Of a DNA stretch of 64,000 nucleotides, positions 24,265 to 40,887 are shown in pieces. Position 1 is the first letter of the stretch, and every line of letters begins with the position of its first letter. The notes under the pieces were generated by a model. The model made no database searches. It was not told the DNA's origin and saw nothing but the letters and a program-made list of their open reading frames with translations. Origin of the DNA: Pseudomonadota bacterium (GTDB lineage: Bacteria; Pseudomonadota; Gammaproteobacteria; Ga0077536). Position numbers and translations under genes: made by a program. The stretch spans positions 1-64,000 of the forward strand of contig JABISZ010000054.1 of the NCBI GenBank assembly GCA_018668255.1, read 5' to 3'.

Positions 24265-24349
24265 CCATATATTGTCTCTATGAAGAAAGCACGTTCATTA
24301 CCTACATGCCTAAGGTGCTTAAATTGAAGAAGGGGAGTGTTTCAAACTC

Positions 24350-26611
24350 ATGAAAATTACAGCCTATGCAGATAAAACAAGTGTCGCACCTGATGAAACT
24401 ATTAACTTCATGGTCAACTGTAATGCTAAGCAGTTTAAAGCAGACTTTGTAAAGTTAATTTGCGGAGACATGAATCCCGACGGACCTGGCTATCAAGAAA
24501 AAGTCATCAGAACTAAAGCAACTGGCACCTACCCGGGCAGAAAGCAGACTATCTATGCCGGTTCATTTGTTCAAATCCAAGACAACGAAAAATTTAATCA
24601 CCTTGAAAGCTTTACTTTGAAGGCGTTCATATGGCCAACCACCCCAAATAAAGGGCACCAAACCATTATTGGCAACTGGTCAGAAAAAGATCAAAACGGT
24701 ATGTCACTGGACATAAGTCCGAATAACAATGGCCTGATGTTAACAATAGGTTCAGGGCCTGATAAAGTTCAGTATGTCGTCTCTGGGAAACCATTTTTAG
24801 AAAGAGAGTGGTATTTTGTAGCGGCGACCTACAATGCAGACACCAAGCGAATTACTCTGATTCAAGAGCCTTTGCATACGCACGCAAAAACACGCGATCG
24901 AAGTATTAAAAATGGAAAATCCAAATTCATCACACCACCAAAATCAAATCGTCGGATCACTATTGGCGCCCAATTTAAAAGAACAGACAAAGGTCGTACG
25001 GTCTGCCAAAACTACTTCAATGGTAAAATTGACAGTCCTCTTATAGCCGCAAGAGCGCTAACAGCCAACCAAATAGAACAACTCAAAACGGGTTACGATA
25101 AAATTAGAATGTCCAATGACGTCGTTGCCGCATGGGACTTCTCAACCGACATCTCTTCGTTAAAAATTTCTGATGTTTCTGGAAACAATATCCATGGGAA
25201 AGTTGTCAATATGCCAGTAAAGGCTATGACTGGCTGGAACTGGGATGGGGAAGAAATGAACTGGAAGCATGCGCCGAAACAATATGGTGCGATTCACTTT
25301 CACGATGATGATGTTCACGATGCGGGCTGGGAAATAGACGTCTCATTAAGGGTTCCAAAAACTCTGAAAAGTGGTCTTTATGCCATCCGGCTCCGCGCCG
25401 GTAAAGATCTGACAGATGAAGACTACGTGCCGTTTGCTGTTCTTCCCCCAAGAGGGAAGGTGACGGCTGATATCTGCTTCATCTTGCCCACCGCGACCTA
25501 CATGGCATATGCCAATGAACACATGGGAACCGACTCTCCCATAGCACAGTTACTTGGTGGTCGTCTTGTCGAACACGAAAGACAGGATCTCTATCGTAAT
25601 GAGCACAGAGAATATGGGGCTAGTTGCTATGATACTCATACCGACGGCTCGGGGGTCTGCTACTCATCGCGACTTCGACCAATATTAAATATGCGACCAA
25701 AATATAAGAGCTGGCTGGGTGGAGAAGGCTCTACACTATGGCAATTTAACGCAGACACTCATATTACTAACTGGCTTGAAGCTCAAGGCTATAATTACGA
25801 TGTTATTACTGATGAAGAACTTCATCACGACGGAGTCTCCGCCTTAGAAAAATATCGAGTAGTCCTGTCGTCCTCTCACCCTGAGTATCATTCGAAAGAA
25901 ATGTGGGATGCCATGTCGACCTATCAAAAGGGCGGAGGTCGCTTAATGTATCTCGGTGCGAACGGATGGTACTGGCGTATTGCCTTTCATCAAGAAGCCG
26001 AAGGTGTCTTAGAAGTCCGGCGGGCAGAAGGGGGCATACGCGGCTGGGAGGCACAAACAGGAGAATATTACCACTCCTTTACCGGAGAATACGGCGGACT
26101 ATGGCGACGAAATGGGAGAGCACCTCAAAAAATTGTTGGTACGGGATTCACTGCACAAGGGTTTGATATCTCGTCTTACTACAAAAGGAACCCTGACAGT
26201 TTCAAAAAACCAGTCAAATGGATAATGAATGGCGTCAAGGATGACGAGCTAATCGGTAACTTTGGACTTATTGGTGGAGGTGCTGCGGGACTTGAACTCG
26301 ATCGTGCTGATACAAAACTGGGGACACACCCCGATGCATATGTACTCGCATCTTCCGAAGATCACACTGATCTATACCTAGTCGTTTGTGAGGAACTCTT
26401 GATTAATTACCCCGGCCTAGGAGGACAAGAAAACCGTCTCGTTAGAGCAGATCTTGTATTCTACGAAACAGATCAAGGTGGAGGCGTGTTTTCAACGAGT
26501 TCAATCGCATGGCCTGGGTCGCTTTCACATAATAATTATGACAACAACGTGTCAAAAATCACTAAAAATGTGCTTGATCGCTTTGTCGGAGAAGACCCTC
26601 TACTAGACTAA
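24350..26611 (+). CDS. N,N-dimethylformamidase large (beta) subunit-like protein
   Basis: 753 aa; central laminin-G-like region; TYMAYANEH, YSSRLRPILNMRPKY, LWQFNADTHITNWLE, SSHPEYHSKEMWDA, GNFGLIGGGAAGLELDRADTKLGTH. Confidence 0.85.
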   Translation: MKITAYADKTSVAPDETINFMVNCNAKQFKADFVKLICGDMNPDGPGYQEKVIRTKATGTYPGRKQTIYAGSFVQIQDNEKFNHLESFTLKAFIWPTTPNKGHQTIIGNWSEKDQNGMSLDISPNNNGLMLTIGSGPDKVQYVVSGKPFLEREWYFVAATYNADTKRITLIQEPLHTHAKTRDRSIKNGKSKFITPPKSNRRITIGAQFKRTDKGRTVCQNYFNGKIDSPLIAARALTANQIEQLKTGYDKIRMSNDVVAAWDFSTDISSLKISDVSGNNIHGKVVNMPVKAMTGWNWDGEEMNWKHAPKQYGAIHFHDDDVHDAGWEIDVSLRVPKTLKSGLYAIRLRAGKDLTDEDYVPFAVLPPRGKVTADICFILPTATYMAYANEHMGTDSPIAQLLGGRLVEHERQDLYRNEHREYGASCYDTHTDGSGVCYSSRLRPILNMRPKYKSWLGGEGSTLWQFNADTHITNWLEAQGYNYDVITDEELHHDGVSALEKYRVVLSSSHPEYHSKEMWDAMSTYQKGGGRLMYLGANGWYWRIAFHQEAEGVLEVRRAEGGIRGWEAQTGEYYHSFTGEYGGLWRRNGRAPQKIVGTGFTAQGFDISSYYKRNPDSFKKPVKWIMNGVKDDELIGNFGLIGGGAAGLELDRADTKLGTHPDAYVLASSEDHTDLYLVVCEELLINYPGLGGQENRLVRADLVFYETDQGGGVFSTSSIAWPGSLSHNNYDNNVSKITKNVLDRFVGEDPLLD

Positions 26612-26650: not shown

Positions 26651-26671
26651 AGAAAAACACTTGTTCTAAAA
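26651..26671 (+). repeat. 21-nt direct repeat, copy 1, upstream of sRNA candidate 1
   Basis: agaaaaacacttgttctaaaa, identical to 26822-26842. Confidence 0.9.
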
Positions 26672-26677
26672 AACATA

Positions 26678-26705
26678 TTGCGCTGCGAGATACTAGCACT
26701 ATAAT
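26678..26705 (+). promoter_or_regulatory. Candidate sigma70 promoter for sRNA candidate 1
   Basis: TTGCGC, 16-nt spacer, TATAAT. Confidence 0.6.
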
Positions 26706-26710
26706 TCTTG

Positions 26711-26797
26711 CTCCTTCTTGGTATTTCGACCTCCCCTCGACTCCAAGTTGGAACCTCCCAAAAAGAAGTCGGGCCTCCTTGGTCCGACTTCTTTTAC
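26711..26797 (+). ncRNA. Candidate small RNA 1 with C-rich anti-SD-like loop and intrinsic terminator
   Basis: CTTGG-tatt-TCGA[CCTCCCC]TCGA-ct-CCAAG hairpin, ACCTCCC linker, AAAAGAAGTCGGGCC-tcctt-GGTCCGACTTCTTTT terminator; no ORF. Confidence 0.65.
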
Positions 26798-26821
26798 TTC
26801 ACAAAACGTTTATTCCAAAAC

Positions 26822-26842
26822 AGAAAAACACTTGTTCTAAAA
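26822..26842 (+). repeat. 21-nt direct repeat, copy 2, upstream of sRNA candidate 2
   Basis: agaaaaacacttgttctaaaa, identical to 26651-26671. Confidence 0.9.
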
Positions 26843-26880
26843 TAATGTTGCAACGCAATATAATATTCGATAAAGTGCAT

Positions 26881-26999
26881 GGGTCTGAGAGAATTTGTCT
26901 TCCCCTCAATCTCTCAGACAGCCCAATTAGTAATTCGACTCCCCTCGAATCTAACTGGGATTCTCCCCCAAACCGGACCTTCATGGTCCGGTTTTTTTT
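26881..26999 (+). ncRNA. Candidate small RNA 2 (sibling of RNA 1)
   Basis: TCTGAGAGA[atttgtCTTCCCCTCaa]TCTCTCAGA; CCCA-a-TTAG-ta-ATTCGA[CTCCCC]TCGAAT-CTAA-c-TGGG; TTCTCCCCC linker; AAACCGGACC-ttcat-GGTCCGGTTTTTTTT terminator. Confidence 0.65.
26970..26999 (+). terminator. Rho-independent terminator of sRNA candidate 2
   Basis: 10-bp stem, 5-nt loop and T8. Confidence 0.9.
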
Positions 27000-27059
27000 G
27001 CTTCCGCCTAAAGAGAAACTCTAAAAACGAATCGTTTTAGAAGTCATTACCTAAACTGA

Positions 27060-27587
27060 TTAATCGGCACCGCTGCGTTTTAACAACAACTCACATACCT
27101 CTCGGACTGCACCATGCCCCCCGACCCGATTACAGACGTAATCAGCATTGGCGATAATTTGAGGAAGAGCATCGTTCGGACATGCTGAGAACCCAACTGC
27201 GAGGATGGAGGCTAGATCATTAACGTCATCCCCTACAAATGCCACTTCAGACATCTCTATATCCCATTCTTTAACAAGCCCTTCTAAAACCTGCAGTTTA
27301 TCAGTGACGCCAGGGTAATAGCTTTGAATGCTAAGTTTTTCCATACGTGCGCGAGTAGGGGCATCATCCTCACCAGTCATCACACAGATTAATACGCCTG
27401 TACTCTCCAAAAGCTGCATTCCTTTGGCGTCTCGAGTGTCAAACTTTTTTAACTCAATACCTTGAGCTCCGTAATACATCCCACCATCAGTAAGAGTGCC
27501 ATCAACGTCCACTACCAAAGCTCGAATCTTGGGTATGCGTGTCGCTGAGGATTGTGCAGCTTTTTGTTTATCAGTCATGAAATTCAC
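27060..27587 (-). CDS. KdsC-like HAD-IIIA phosphatase
   Basis: IRALVVDVDGTLTDGGMYYG, KKFDTRDAKGMQLL, VAFVGDDVNDLA, NADYVCNRVGGHGAVREVCELLL. Confidence 0.88.
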   Translation of the reverse strand: MNFMTDKQKAAQSSATRIPKIRALVVDVDGTLTDGGMYYGAQGIELKKFDTRDAKGMQLLESTGVLICVMTGEDDAPTRARMEKLSIQSYYPGVTDKLQVLEGLVKEWDIEMSEVAFVGDDVNDLASILAVGFSACPNDALPQIIANADYVCNRVGGHGAVREVCELLLKRSGAD

Positions 27588-27733: not shown

Positions 27734-28744
27734 ATGCAAATCATAAAGCGCCGTGAGTCTCAAAAATATGCGTTCGACAATCGGGATGAACCTGCGTTAC
27801 ATGTCATAGAGGGGGAAACATTTCAGGTCGAAACAGACGATGCCCTCTCTGGAATGATCGATGATGACAGCGATGACCCGTTCATCCAAGGATTCGACGG
27901 GAAACACTTTTCAGAACTAGCACAGGCAACTCCAGGTCTATTCAACCCAGTAGTAGGGCCAATTCACATCAAAGGATGCAAAGCAGGCGATGTCCTGGCA
28001 GTACATATCGATTGGGTTGACCCTTGGAGATATGGCTTTTCTGGAATTTTACCGCGTATCGGACCGCTTGGAGACTCTCTTCGATATCCAGATTGCGCGG
28101 ATGGACACGTACAAGTGATAGAGCATCTGGCTGGTCCCAGCGGATTCACGCGCGATGGCACTGCAAAATACTCAGAAAATCTTAGCTGGCCCCTGGAACC
28201 TTTTATAGGTACTTTGGCTACCGCGCCAGAACGCGAAGTGTTCACCTCCGTTCTCGGACAAGGGCCATTCGGTGGAAATATTGACTGTCGAGATATATGT
28301 GCGGGACACACAATCTACCTCAATTCCTATAATGATGGGGGACTCCTTTACATAGGGGATGTTCATGGAGGACAAGGGGATACTGAATTTACTGGCATCG
28401 CTGATGAGACTCGCTCTACGGTGCAGTTGTCGTGCACCGTCATACCCAATAAGCGGAATCCCTGCGTGAGAATAGAAAAACCAGATAGTATCGTAGCAGT
28501 TGGCATCAATCTACCTATGGAACATGCGGTATATGATGCAACGGACAATCTAATGCAGTGGCTCGCTGATGAGTATGACGTCCCTCCCAAAGATCTATAT
28601 ATCAGAATGTCATGTGATCCGGCGTTTAGAATCCGTACTTATCAAATGGTTCGGTTACAAACTATTCAGCACGTTGTAGGTGCAGAATATCCCAAGAGTC
28701 GTCTTTTTAACGCCATAGATTCTCCGACTAAAGTTAACTCATGA
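27734..28744 (+). CDS. Acetamidase/formamidase family protein
   Basis: NPVVGPIHIKGCKAGDVLAVHID, GQGPFGGNIDCRDICAGHTIYL, GLLYIGDVHGGQGDTEFTG. Confidence 0.88.
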   Translation: MQIIKRRESQKYAFDNRDEPALHVIEGETFQVETDDALSGMIDDDSDDPFIQGFDGKHFSELAQATPGLFNPVVGPIHIKGCKAGDVLAVHIDWVDPWRYGFSGILPRIGPLGDSLRYPDCADGHVQVIEHLAGPSGFTRDGTAKYSENLSWPLEPFIGTLATAPEREVFTSVLGQGPFGGNIDCRDICAGHTIYLNSYNDGGLLYIGDVHGGQGDTEFTGIADETRSTVQLSCTVIPNKRNPCVRIEKPDSIVAVGINLPMEHAVYDATDNLMQWLADEYDVPPKDLYIRMSCDPAFRIRTYQMVRLQTIQHVVGAEYPKSRLFNAIDSPTKVNS

Positions 28745-29583
28745 GAATTGGCGTTTCTCTACCTATTCGTGAGCTCAAGAACGACCTCGCTGCAATAGTA
28801 GCGTTTGCACAACTCGCAGAGGAATTAGGCTTCACTCATTTAAGAATACCAGATCAAATACTGAGGCCGAACAATCAACATCTTCATGAACCATTAACAT
28901 TAATGGGATATCTGGCCGCCCTCACCGAGAAGATCGAACTGACCCCATCTGTAATCGTCTTGCCTTTAAGAGAGACAATTCTCCTCGCAAAACAAACTAC
29001 GGAAATCGATATATTATCAGGAGGTCGACTGAGACTTGGCATTGGAGTGGGTGGGAGTGAAGATGAGTATCAGTTCGTGGGAGAGGACTATAAAACTCGT
29101 GGAAAGAAATGCGACGAACAAATGAAACTACTAAAGGAACTGTGGTGTAAAGAAAGCGTCGAATTTATAGCCGATTGGCACAATATTTCTAAGGCCGGAA
29201 TTAACCCGCTACCTATACAACGGCCTATACCCATGTGGATCGGCGCGAAGGCATCGCCAAGACGGAGTGTCATTAATAGAATTGGTACCTTATCCGATGG
29301 GTGGTTTGTATTATGCAATCCAGAAGAATTTCCAAAACTTAACATGGAAATTAATGATATCGCCAAAAAAAGCGGTCGCGACCCAAAAGAAATTGGCACT
29401 GAAGCAGGGGTCGCAGTAGTAGGCCCACGCGAGCACGAATGGCAAGGCCGAGTGAAAGTGTGGAAAAGCAAAGGATTATCACACCTATGCATCAGGACCC
29501 TAGGAGGAGGGCTTTCTCCAAAGCAACACCTTGAAAAGTTGCAGGAAATTTCAACCGAGCTCGAAGAAGTAAACGCTTATTAA
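28741..29583 (+). CDS. LLM class flavin-dependent oxidoreductase
   Basis: RIGVSLPIRELKNDLAAIVAFAQLAEELGF, GGRLRLGIGVGGSEDEY, PMWIGAKASPRRSVIN; ATGA overlap with the preceding gene. Confidence 0.9.
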   Translation: MRIGVSLPIRELKNDLAAIVAFAQLAEELGFTHLRIPDQILRPNNQHLHEPLTLMGYLAALTEKIELTPSVIVLPLRETILLAKQTTEIDILSGGRLRLGIGVGGSEDEYQFVGEDYKTRGKKCDEQMKLLKELWCKESVEFIADWHNISKAGINPLPIQRPIPMWIGAKASPRRSVINRIGTLSDGWFVLCNPEEFPKLNMEINDIAKKSGRDPKEIGTEAGVAVVGPREHEWQGRVKVWKSKGLSHLCIRTLGGGLSPKQHLEKLQEISTELEEVNAY

Positions 29584-37872: not shown

Positions 37873-38041
37873 TTGCTTATCCTAGATATTAACTATGAGG
37901 TTTATTATACCCGCTATGATAGCTTTTTAGACAGGTTGCCTGAATAGGTAATTTACATAGCACGCCAAAAATGGTGTCATACCGCGATGGGCTAAAAATA
38001 GTCAGTAACGAATAGGGCAAAAGAATACGAGGGGAGCATAA

Positions 38042-38464
38042 ATGCCGGCACCAAAAAAACCCACTGCACTGCAACAAAACTACGCCTTAACGGCAGTAGA
38101 TGACTATGACATGAGAATGTATGTGGTCGATCACTTGAAAGATAAAGACAAAAGAAACGCGCTTATAGCAGAGCATGCGAAATTCCCTAGAGGAGGAGCG
38201 ACTCAACCGGGAAGCCCGCCTCCACTCCAGAGCCAAACGTTAAAGAGATTAGTAGATAAGTTACGAATGGTGCCTCAAACCGGGAAACACACCATCGTAG
38301 AAACAATTCCATGGAAGGAATATGCCATCGGCATCTTACCTGGCGCCCGCGGGAAGCCGGTAAAAATAACTAACGAAAAATATAACTCTAGAGATGATGC
38401 TAACCACGCTATTTTTTGCAAACGATTAAAGGCTTTGTGCGCTCATTACGATATCCGCATGTAG
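38042..38464 (+). CDS. N,N-dimethylformamidase small subunit-like protein (paralog 2)
   Basis: LKRLVDKLRMVPQTGKHTIVETIPWKEYAIGILPGARGKPVKITNEKYNSRDDANHAIFCKRL parallels 23968-24264; upstream of large-subunit paralog 2. Confidence 0.68.
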   Translation: MPAPKKPTALQQNYALTAVDDYDMRMYVVDHLKDKDKRNALIAEHAKFPRGGATQPGSPPPLQSQTLKRLVDKLRMVPQTGKHTIVETIPWKEYAIGILPGARGKPVKITNEKYNSRDDANHAIFCKRLKALCAHYDIRM

Positions 38465-38478
38465 TTCAGGGGAAAACC

Positions 38479-40887
38479 ATGAAACAAGACTCAATGTTAC
38501 GCATAACCGGCTATTCCGATAAATGCTCCGTTACACCAGGAGATGAGATCACATTTTATGTTCATAGTGAATTTGGTGAATCTTACCAATCTGATATCGT
38601 AAGACTTATCAACGGAGACACCAATCCTGAAGGTCCAGGATTCAAGGAAAAACTATTCCGAACCAGTGTTAATGCAAAGTACAAAGGTGAGAATCAGCCT
38701 TTAATGGCAGGAAGTTACCTGCTTGCCCCGCAAAGTGATCATTTTGACCTAGAAAGCCTGACGCTGTGTGCCTATATTTACCCAACAACTCCAACGGTCG
38801 ATACAGAAGGAGTTGCGGTCGGAGAACAAGCGCTGCTCTCGAAATGGGATGCAGATAAGAAAAAAGGGTACGGATTATTCATCAATAAAGAGGGTGAGCT
38901 TGAATTTCGTTTAGGGAATGGCAGAGGAAAAGTAGAAAGCTTTAGCACTCGCAAACCCATGATGAGAAAAATTTGGTATAAAGTCATGGTCAGTTTCGAC
39001 GCGTCTACTGGCAAAGGACTCATCTGCCAGATCCCTTATCTGACTGCGACTAATGGTGGTCATGGACCAAGTATGCTCCATCCCCGCTCTGACACCGAAG
39101 CTGAACGTAAATTTATCGCTAAAAACGGCGCAGCCAAAATGCACGAAAGCCCCTTCACGATGGCCGCTAGCTGCAAGTCCTCGGAATGTGGCCGGCAGGT
39201 GTTTGATGGACATTACAACCATCTGGAACAGCCTTGGGATATCCCCGAGCACACTGAAAAATACAATGGGAAAATCGATAGACCACGAGTGGCAAATCGA
39301 GCGCTAAACAGAGCTGAAATAGAGCTTATTCTAGGTGCACCTAGAATGGAGGCCATACCAACAGAACTAAGGTCTTCTATCGTAGCTGCTTGGGATTTCA
39401 GCGCTAATATTTCAGAAAATGCTGCGTCCACGCACATTGTAGATGCGGGTCCCCATCGACTACATGCTGTTGGAATAAATCTCCCAGTCCGGGGAACACC
39501 AGGTCATAACTGGTCCTCCCACTTCATGAGCTTCATCCATGGGCCTCAAGAGTACGGCGCAATACATTTTCACGATGAAACTGTGGATGATGCGCGTTGG
39601 AAGCCAACATTTACGCTAAAAATCCCCGAACGCATGGTCAGTGGAGTCTATGCTGCTCGCCTCAGGGTCAAAGGGAAATCAACTCCAGATCATGAAGACT
39701 ATATCCCATTTTTCGTACGTCCACCTAAGGGCACAACGACTGCGAAAATTGCTCTAGTCATGCCGACTCACAGTTATATGGCATACGCGAACGATAACTT
39801 AAGCGTTAACTCCGTGGTAGCACAATTATTAACAGGACAGGTGCCACTCCTGCAACCAAGCGACTTATTACTTAATCAAGAGCGCGGATATGGACTAGGG
39901 ACGTATGCGTCCTATCGAGACGGCTGGGGAGTAAACGTGTCTTCTCGTCTGCGCCCGATCCTCAATATGAGGCCCAAGTATCTGCATGTGCTCTCGCCAT
40001 CGCTTTGGCAGTTCAACGCAGATTTACATCTCGTTGACTGGTTGCATGAACTTAAGTATGACGTAGATATTATTACTGACGAAGACGTGCAAAGAGAAGG
40101 CGTGACGCTTCTAAACCAATATCCCATAGTCTTAACAGGACACCATCCGGAGTATGTCTCTGAAGAGGCAATGGACGCCTATCATGACTACCAGCTGCAA
40201 GGCGGTCGTTTTCTATATCTGGCAGCCAATGGCTTCTATTGGATCACTGTGCCGCATCCCGAAAACCCCAACATCATCGAGGTGAGAAAAGGGGATAACG
40301 GAACTCGAGCATGGACTATTAACCCTGGCGAATACTGTAATGCCTTCGATGGAAAACATGGTGGCTTATGGCGAGTTCGAGGACGAGCTATGAGCAAGCT
40401 ACTCGGCGTCACTTTCACTTCTTTTGGCCTCACATATTCTTCCTACTATCGCCGCGCGCCGGATAGCAATCTGCCTGAGTGCCAATGGATAATGAAAGGC
40501 TTAAGTGCTGACGAGCCTATTGGAAACTTTGGCTTAGTAGGTGGAGGTGCCGCGGGTCTTGAACTCGATCGATACGATCTAGAACTGGGCACGCCACACA
40601 GAGCGTATCTATTAGCTCACTCTGAGGGGCATAACGATATCTTTGTATCAGTAACTGAAGAATCGACGTTTAATGCCAGAGGCTATACACAAGGAGGAAC
40701 AGGCGACAACAATCCTTGGACACGCGCAGATATCGTCTACTACAAGACACCGAACGACGGGGCAGTTTTTTCTGTCGGTTCAATGTCATGGTGTGGCTCA
40801 TTGCAGCACAATGATTACGACAACAATGTCTCTCAAATCATGCAAAATGTTCTCAATGGTTTTCTAAAACCAGGCACATTGCCATGA
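38479..40887 (+). CDS. N,N-dimethylformamidase large subunit-like protein (paralog 2)
   Basis: Collinear with 24350-26611: SYMAYANDN, VSSRLRPILNMRPKY, LWQFNADLHLVDWLHE, TGHHPEYVSEEAMDAY, GNFGLVGGGAAGLELDRYDLELGTP. Start corrected from 38416. Confidence 0.85.
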   Translation: MKQDSMLRITGYSDKCSVTPGDEITFYVHSEFGESYQSDIVRLINGDTNPEGPGFKEKLFRTSVNAKYKGENQPLMAGSYLLAPQSDHFDLESLTLCAYIYPTTPTVDTEGVAVGEQALLSKWDADKKKGYGLFINKEGELEFRLGNGRGKVESFSTRKPMMRKIWYKVMVSFDASTGKGLICQIPYLTATNGGHGPSMLHPRSDTEAERKFIAKNGAAKMHESPFTMAASCKSSECGRQVFDGHYNHLEQPWDIPEHTEKYNGKIDRPRVANRALNRAEIELILGAPRMEAIPTELRSSIVAAWDFSANISENAASTHIVDAGPHRLHAVGINLPVRGTPGHNWSSHFMSFIHGPQEYGAIHFHDETVDDARWKPTFTLKIPERMVSGVYAARLRVKGKSTPDHEDYIPFFVRPPKGTTTAKIALVMPTHSYMAYANDNLSVNSVVAQLLTGQVPLLQPSDLLLNQERGYGLGTYASYRDGWGVNVSSRLRPILNMRPKYLHVLSPSLWQFNADLHLVDWLHELKYDVDIITDEDVQREGVTLLNQYPIVLTGHHPEYVSEEAMDAYHDYQLQGGRFLYLAANGFYWITVPHPENPNIIEVRKGDNGTRAWTINPGEYCNAFDGKHGGLWRVRGRAMSKLLGVTFTSFGLTYSSYYRRAPDSNLPECQWIMKGLSADEPIGNFGLVGGGAAGLELDRYDLELGTPHRAYLLAHSEGHNDIFVSVTEESTFNARGYTQGGTGDNNPWTRADIVYYKTPNDGAVFSVGSMSWCGSLQHNDYDNNVSQIMQNVLNGFLKPGTLP

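Follow-up and report, generated by a model that had tools for sequence, protein, structure and literature searches.

What do the two similar, hairpin-rich units downstream of a dimethylformamidase (DMFase) gene encode, and how might they be controlled? The window analysed here is a stretch of 64,000 nucleotides, to which all positions refer. The segment 26651-26999 contains two complete small-RNA (sRNA) genes in tandem (~26712-26798 and ~26883-26999). Each comes with a sigma-70-like promoter of its own and ends in an intrinsic terminator; in between are one or two hairpins whose loop is CU-rich and a linker that is likewise CU-rich and unpaired. The pair is flanked by the DMFase large-subunit gene (24350-26611; PF20254, PDB 6lvb) and a convergent HAD-family phosphatase gene (27060-27587), which is taken to be kdsC. 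Computation shows the structure of the RNA genes, their conservation and covariation, the box in the promoters and a phaR gene. The best explanation, and in our judgement a fairly probable one, is that the units are two paralogous, separately transcribed and terminated trans-acting sRNAs directed against Shine-Dalgarno (SD) sequences, probably under PhaR/AniA and a second regulator. The parts of the two genes are as follows.

26712-26798, + strand: small RNA 1, ~87 nt, predicted start; fold z-score -7.3 for 26708-26798; matched by covariance models R1 and R2
26712-26752, + strand: hairpin of small RNA 1, loop CCUCCCC at 26730-26736
26754-26759, + strand: unpaired linker CCUCCC of small RNA 1
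26761-26795, + strand: intrinsic terminator of small RNA 1 (inverted repeat I2)
26883-26999, + strand: small RNA 2, ~117 nt, predicted start; fold z-score -6.0 for 26876-26999; matched by R1 and R2
26883-26919, + strand: 5' hairpin of small RNA 2, loop UCUUCCCCUC at 26898-26907
26922-26959, + strand: second hairpin of small RNA 2, homologous to the hairpin of small RNA 1, loop CUCCCC at 26939-26944
26961-26969, + strand: unpaired linker UUCUCCCCC of small RNA 2
26970-26999, + strand: intrinsic terminator of small RNA 2 with its U tract

The hairpins, C-rich loops, linkers and terminators with 5-nt loops are as the original prediction described, including the extra 5' hairpin with its UCUUCCCCUC loop in copy 2, and the starts that it estimated (26711 and 26881) lie close to the refined, predicted ones (~26712 and ~26883). 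A CU-rich loop at the position of this 5' hairpin is also found in relatives of the same genus. Between the terminator of small RNA 2 and the phosphatase gene lies a near-perfect palindrome, TCTAAAAACGAATCGTTTTAGA (27020-27041), which is perhaps the terminator of the convergent gene. The phosphatase is strongly diverged in G004 (L024, 2723-3241), where the DVDG motif has become DVDR; in G002 and G005 (L023 and L025) no matching phosphatase ORF is listed and another ORF, of 170 residues, separates the sRNAs from the formamidase gene. Beyond the sRNAs, the region 27734-29583 carries genes for a formamidase/acetamidase (FmdA) and a luciferase-like monooxygenase, which together with DMFase form a putative amide-degradation cluster.

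Both fold z-scores are relative to dinucleotide shuffles, none of which (0 of 200) folds as well, and the CU-rich loops and linkers are predicted to be unpaired with probabilities of ~0.9-1.0. The compensating stem changes that had been noted between the two copies were upheld on a larger set: in the alignment of the 17 copies from which R2 was built, standard pairs occupy 87.6% of the pair cells and 19 of the 26 pairs show a change of both bases in one or more copies. Double-changed cells number 50 against a shuffled mean of 15, a value that none of 500 shuffles reaches, and slid controls collapse; as the structure was derived from the same sequences, the contrast with the slid controls on paired cells is partly expected, but the double changes are not. 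The middle of the stem, for example, occurs as CTTGG/CCAAG, ATTAG/CTAAT, GACAG/CTGTC and GTTAG/CTAAC. No copy in the same alignment departs from the loop CUCCCCU, and the linker CUCCC is almost as constant. Stems that drift around fixed C-rich bases are the pattern expected of an RNA that presents anti-SD segments. An ORF of 81 residues (26779-27024) does overlap the region, which could suggest a small protein-coding gene, or the hairpins might have arisen by chance; this ORF is broken by stop codons in the two closest relatives and the covariation is far above that of the shuffles, so that we regard a coding or chance origin as refuted, with a negligible residual probability. The fold, the covariation, the fixed loops and the conserved promoter and terminator together give strong support to a pair of sibling sRNA genes that expose anti-SD segments.

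The original prediction had called for conservation of the loops and stems in related genomes, and BLAST and covariance-model searches found it. Every one of the six genomes examined in the genus has the tandem pair 3' of the same DMFase gene, a second genus has a tandem pair beside DMFase in three genomes, and three further genera of the family contribute single copies, giving members in five related genera overall. R2 also gave an independent match in G011 (E = 5.5e-11), a genome whose genus is absent from the model, and, less strongly, copies in G016 and G022 that look genuine. The position directly downstream of DMFase in two genera would also suit elements of the DMFase mRNA itself, whether for 3' processing, as a double terminator or as cis attenuators. 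This explanation is highly improbable: promoter and terminator are conserved for each unit separately, and some single copies have no DMFase beside them, the one in G008 neighbouring a CoA-transferase gene and the one in G010 lying in a different context.

Among 369 genomes drawn across the class, the search, with filters that are strict at that size, yielded no convincing member beyond the family. R1 matches from genomes not belonging to it, G161, G179 and G128, proved on reading to be ordinary terminators, and the weak R2 matches L138, L139, L141 and L151-L153 were rejected by eye. A further weak R2 match (L140, G032:C265:4374-4466; E = 0.036) comes from another genus of the family and comprises a hairpin with a ACUCCCCUCCCC loop, an AACCUCC linker and a terminator, with no clear PhaR-like box; it is possibly an analogous sRNA. 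A pattern scan also matched in actinobacteria, archaea, Paenibacillus and similar organisms, probably by chance given the short motif. Rfam gave no match at curated cut-offs and nothing convincing at permissive thresholds for the window, the locus or the relatives; the permissive matches to rli32, RsaA and similar models are chance or noise. Since no convincing homologue came from Rfam or from the 369 class genomes, the sRNAs look like an undescribed, family-restricted family. We rate this family as new but functionally of a known kind; it has no Rfam model and no description in the literature searched, its covariation is unusually clear and the architecture of its promoters is conserved.

The promoters of the two copies contain the following elements.

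26651-26667, + strand: upstream inverted repeat of copy 1, AGAA-N9-TTCT, comprising most of the 21-nt element; half-sites at a constant distance from the -35 in most copies
26678-26687, + strand: PhaR-like box TTGCGCTGCG over the -35 of copy 1, fitting the core of the PhaR consensus from S. meliloti, YGCRNYGCR
26700-26705, + strand: -10 of copy 1, TATAAT, 16 nt after TTGCGC, in a conserved column block
26822-26838, + strand: inverted repeat upstream of copy 2, with the same sequence as in copy 1
26848-26857, + strand: PhaR-like box TTGCAACGCA over the -35 of copy 2
26871-26876, + strand: -10 of copy 2, TAAAGT, 17 nt after TTGCAA; the six genomes of the genus all have TANAGT here

The 21-nt element AGAAAAACACTTGTTCTAAAA, described earlier as shared by the two units, does recur without change, at 26651-26671 and, 171 nt further on, at 26822-26842, but it lies upstream of the -35 and outside the RNA. 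The conserved core of the upstream repeat is GGAA/AGAA-N9-TTCC/TTCT, ~10 bp upstream of the PhaR-like box, and is a candidate activator or operator site. The box over the -35, which is absent from the original prediction, resembles the consensus WNWD2NYGCRNYGCRNH2WNW of S. meliloti PhaR (PMC12542648). TTGCRNYGC is present over the -35 in all 23 copies, three of them outside the model, at one position relative to the -10; these letters were imposed by the search pattern, so the finding is the match in every copy and the fixed position. YGCRNYGCR is matched exactly in 19 of the 23, and the other four differ solely in the last base, which is C instead of R. In some copies (G008, G016, G017, G022 and G023) there is a second, downstream box near the start site. 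Genome-wide, PhaR-type boxes are only about twofold enriched at one mismatch, a point against the PhaR reading. A perfect PhaR-like box, TTGTTGCATTGCA, also precedes the start of a LysR-type regulator gene by 29-38 nt (G000:C66:24919; L068) and makes this gene a possible further PhaR target.

The genome encodes a PhaR with both the DNA-binding and the PHB_acc domain (PF07879 and PF05233), at G000:C44:38749 (L096, 1480-1956), between dihydrolipoamide-dehydrogenase-like and PEP-carboxykinase-like genes. No PhaC_N (PF07167) and no Phasin_2 (PF09361) domain was found in this 98%-complete genome, and control genomes gave matches; a PHB synthase that escapes PF07167 may still be present. Of the hallmarks of a PhaR regulon, the YGCRNYGCR palindrome in the promoter and a phaR gene are thus present, and a PHB synthase and phasin were not found. 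With no PhaC_N-type synthase or Phasin_2, the known PHB-titration route would be closed to PhaR here, unless a divergent synthase exists.

These observations bear on whether the box belongs to PhaR at all. Real tandem anti-SD sRNAs could instead carry the site of another regulator, or an unusual -35 plus discriminator, with PhaR uninvolved; the missing PhaC_N and Phasin_2, the overlap with the -35 hexamer, which makes TTGC partly expected, and the four copies ending in C would all fit. The invariant GC at positions 7-8, which lies outside the hexamer, the R-N-Y centre and the second downstream box of the five genomes named above, however, all point to a PhaR-type palindromic operator, and a phaR gene is present here. 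We consider a box unrelated to PhaR rather unlikely. The PhaR-like palindrome over the -35 together with the upstream GGAA-N9-TTCC-type repeat suggests that PhaR/AniA and a second regulator are probably in control. More specifically, and tentatively, a PhaR kept without a recognisable PHB synthase in this family of uncultured Gammaproteobacteria may control the tandem anti-SD sRNAs and, through them, adjust the catabolism of amides (DMFase/formamidase).

Multicopy sRNAs with CU-rich loops include LhrC and the cuckoo (CcsR) RNAs. The original prediction named these as parallels, but they come from unrelated hosts and contexts and match nothing at the window locus in Rfam; NmsRA/B, AbcR1/2, alphaR8/MmgR and bdhR1/NcS27 are nearer. 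The window sRNAs are built like NmsR, AbcR, alphaR8/MmgR and bdhR1/NcS27, with membership established in none; NmsR was compared by description. NmsRA/NmsRB of N. meningitidis and NgncR_162/163 of N. gonorrhoeae are tandem siblings that repress metabolic mRNAs at the ribosome-binding site (PMC5362039, PMC9973317). As in the window pair, their UC-rich anti-SD segments are two, the first placed in the loop of a hairpin and the other in a single-stranded linker. NmsR differs in being tied there to the stringent response (RelA), and the consulted parts of PMC5362039 and PMC9973317 report no PhaR-type box.

AbcR1 and AbcR2 (alpha-r15, RF02345), also tandem and homologous to each other, repress mRNAs for transport and metabolism; their aSD1 occupies a hairpin loop (CUCCUCCC) and their aSD2 the stretch separating stem-loops (UUCCCCUC) (PMC8844928). 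The window pair shares with them the tandem arrangement and the placing of a first anti-SD motif in a hairpin loop and a second in a linker, whereas AbcR is alphaproteobacterial, with AbcR1 under LsrB and AbcR2 under RpoH1. RF02345 gave no match at its gathering score in the genome itself, nor in the control genomes, which leaves this search unvalidated, and none at the locus at E up to 10; no LsrB/VtlR box (GCAT-N3-TG-N3-T) was seen upstream of copy 1 on inspection of the promoter alignment. Membership of AbcR was rejected on both counts, the negative model and the unseen LsrB box. The double-hairpin or toxic sRNAs of betaproteobacteria (bdhR1/NcS27, RF02278) and S17 of B. pertussis are short, with CU-rich unpaired stretches that match the ribosome-binding site; those of Burkholderia are multicopy, and three of the four have a common upstream motif (PMC5688073, PMC11722255). 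Unlike the window pair, bdhR1/NcS27 genes are dispersed, and RF02278 scores 15.5 bits (E = 1.5) at the locus against a cut-off of 50 bits.

The alphaR8 family (MmgR and SisA-D; suhB, RF00519) also consists of siblings, of which mmgR is repressed by PhaR/AniA (PMC12542648, PMC12559287). The window sRNAs might be divergent members of it, inherited or transferred into Gammaproteobacteria: the logic is the same, with a weak hairpin, a single-stranded UC-rich anti-SD stretch containing CUCCC and a terminator; both window copies have a PhaR-type box as in the mmgR promoter, the alphaR8 family being PhaR-repressed in S. meliloti; and sub-threshold RF00519 matches fall on copy 1 of G002, G004 and G005. 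These matches, however, reach 17-20 bits against a cut-off of 41, which is noise level. None of 40 genomes is above this cut-off, one control genome is, the best score at this locus is 19.5 bits and no match appears in the window locus at E up to 10. Neither the alphaR8 10-mer UUUCCUCCCU after the weak hairpin, where the linkers here are AACCUCCC and UUCUCCCCC, nor the N-formylglutamate amidohydrolase neighbour was seen. SisA-D, moreover, have no common promoter motif, whereas all copies of the window family do, and alphaR8 is an alphaproteobacterial family, which the host is not. Membership was rejected on the sub-threshold RF00519 scores, and an alphaR8 origin is improbable.

Taking the units to be separately transcribed anti-SD sRNAs, we propose a model in which transcription, the role of Hfq, PhaR binding, targets and physiology are all predicted. 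PhaR/AniA and a second factor would set transcription from both sigma-70-type promoters; by analogy with mmgR, PhaR may act as a repressor, and its control would tie the sRNAs to carbon surplus or acetyl-CoA status. The stems would hold the C-rich segments single-stranded, in the loops CCUCCCC, CUCCCC and UCUUCCCCUC and the linkers CCUCCC and UUCUCCCCC. These segments, two or three per sibling, would pair, probably on Hfq, with G-rich SDs such as GAGGGGAG and so block translation initiation. Plausible targets are the DMFase and other amide-catabolic mRNAs, for which two candidate pairing sites were found in the window.

38029-38036, + strand: SD GAGGGGAG of a DMFase small-subunit paralogue (start 38042), candidate pairing site with the best duplex, -18.8 kcal/mol
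24332-24338, + strand: SD GGGGAGT (AAGGGGAGT) of the adjacent DMFase large subunit, candidate pairing site with the second-best duplex, -15.7 kcal/mol

These are the two strongest duplexes with the loops among the 51 gene starts of the window, and both belong to DMFase genes, which are also the only two of the 51 with GGGGAG within 30 nt upstream. The first precedes a second DMFase operon (38042-40887), 11 kb downstream, with the small subunit at 38042-38464 (matching PDB 6lvb chain B) and the large subunit from 38479; a third DMFase copy lies on contig C33 (L157), giving at least three DMFase systems in one 2.3-Mb genome. A genome-wide scan for GAGGGGAG-N4-10-ATG returned seven sites, the 38042 paralogue among them, against two for the reversed control; three of the seven precede plausible genes, two of which are DMFase subunits, including the third copy. 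In the second genus, the SD of the DMFase small subunit is GAGGGGAG in two of the three genomes. The SD of the adjacent large subunit is the same in G001 and G003 only, and is not conserved in G002, G004, G005 or the second genus; the adjacent DMFase was thus rejected as a universal target. The target signal is suggestive, being post hoc and drawn from few genes. Of the original reading as trans-acting, SD-targeting riboregulators, the sibling sRNAs with exposed anti-SD segments stand, and trans-acting SD targeting is the best reading of what they would do.

The DMFase SDs provide a concrete target hypothesis for one-carbon amide degradation. As far as the literature searched shows, the promoter link to PhaR, as read from the sequence, would be new for the class. 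It suggests a pairing of PhaR with C-rich anti-SD sRNAs outside Alphaproteobacteria, in the form of tandem siblings and possibly without PHB storage. If true, PhaR would here act on sRNAs in a circuit independent of PHB, a parallel to the alphaproteobacterial PhaR-mmgR circuit that arose without detectable RNA homology. Two questions become testable: whether the origin of such circuits was convergent, and to which signal PhaR responds where no PhaC is found.
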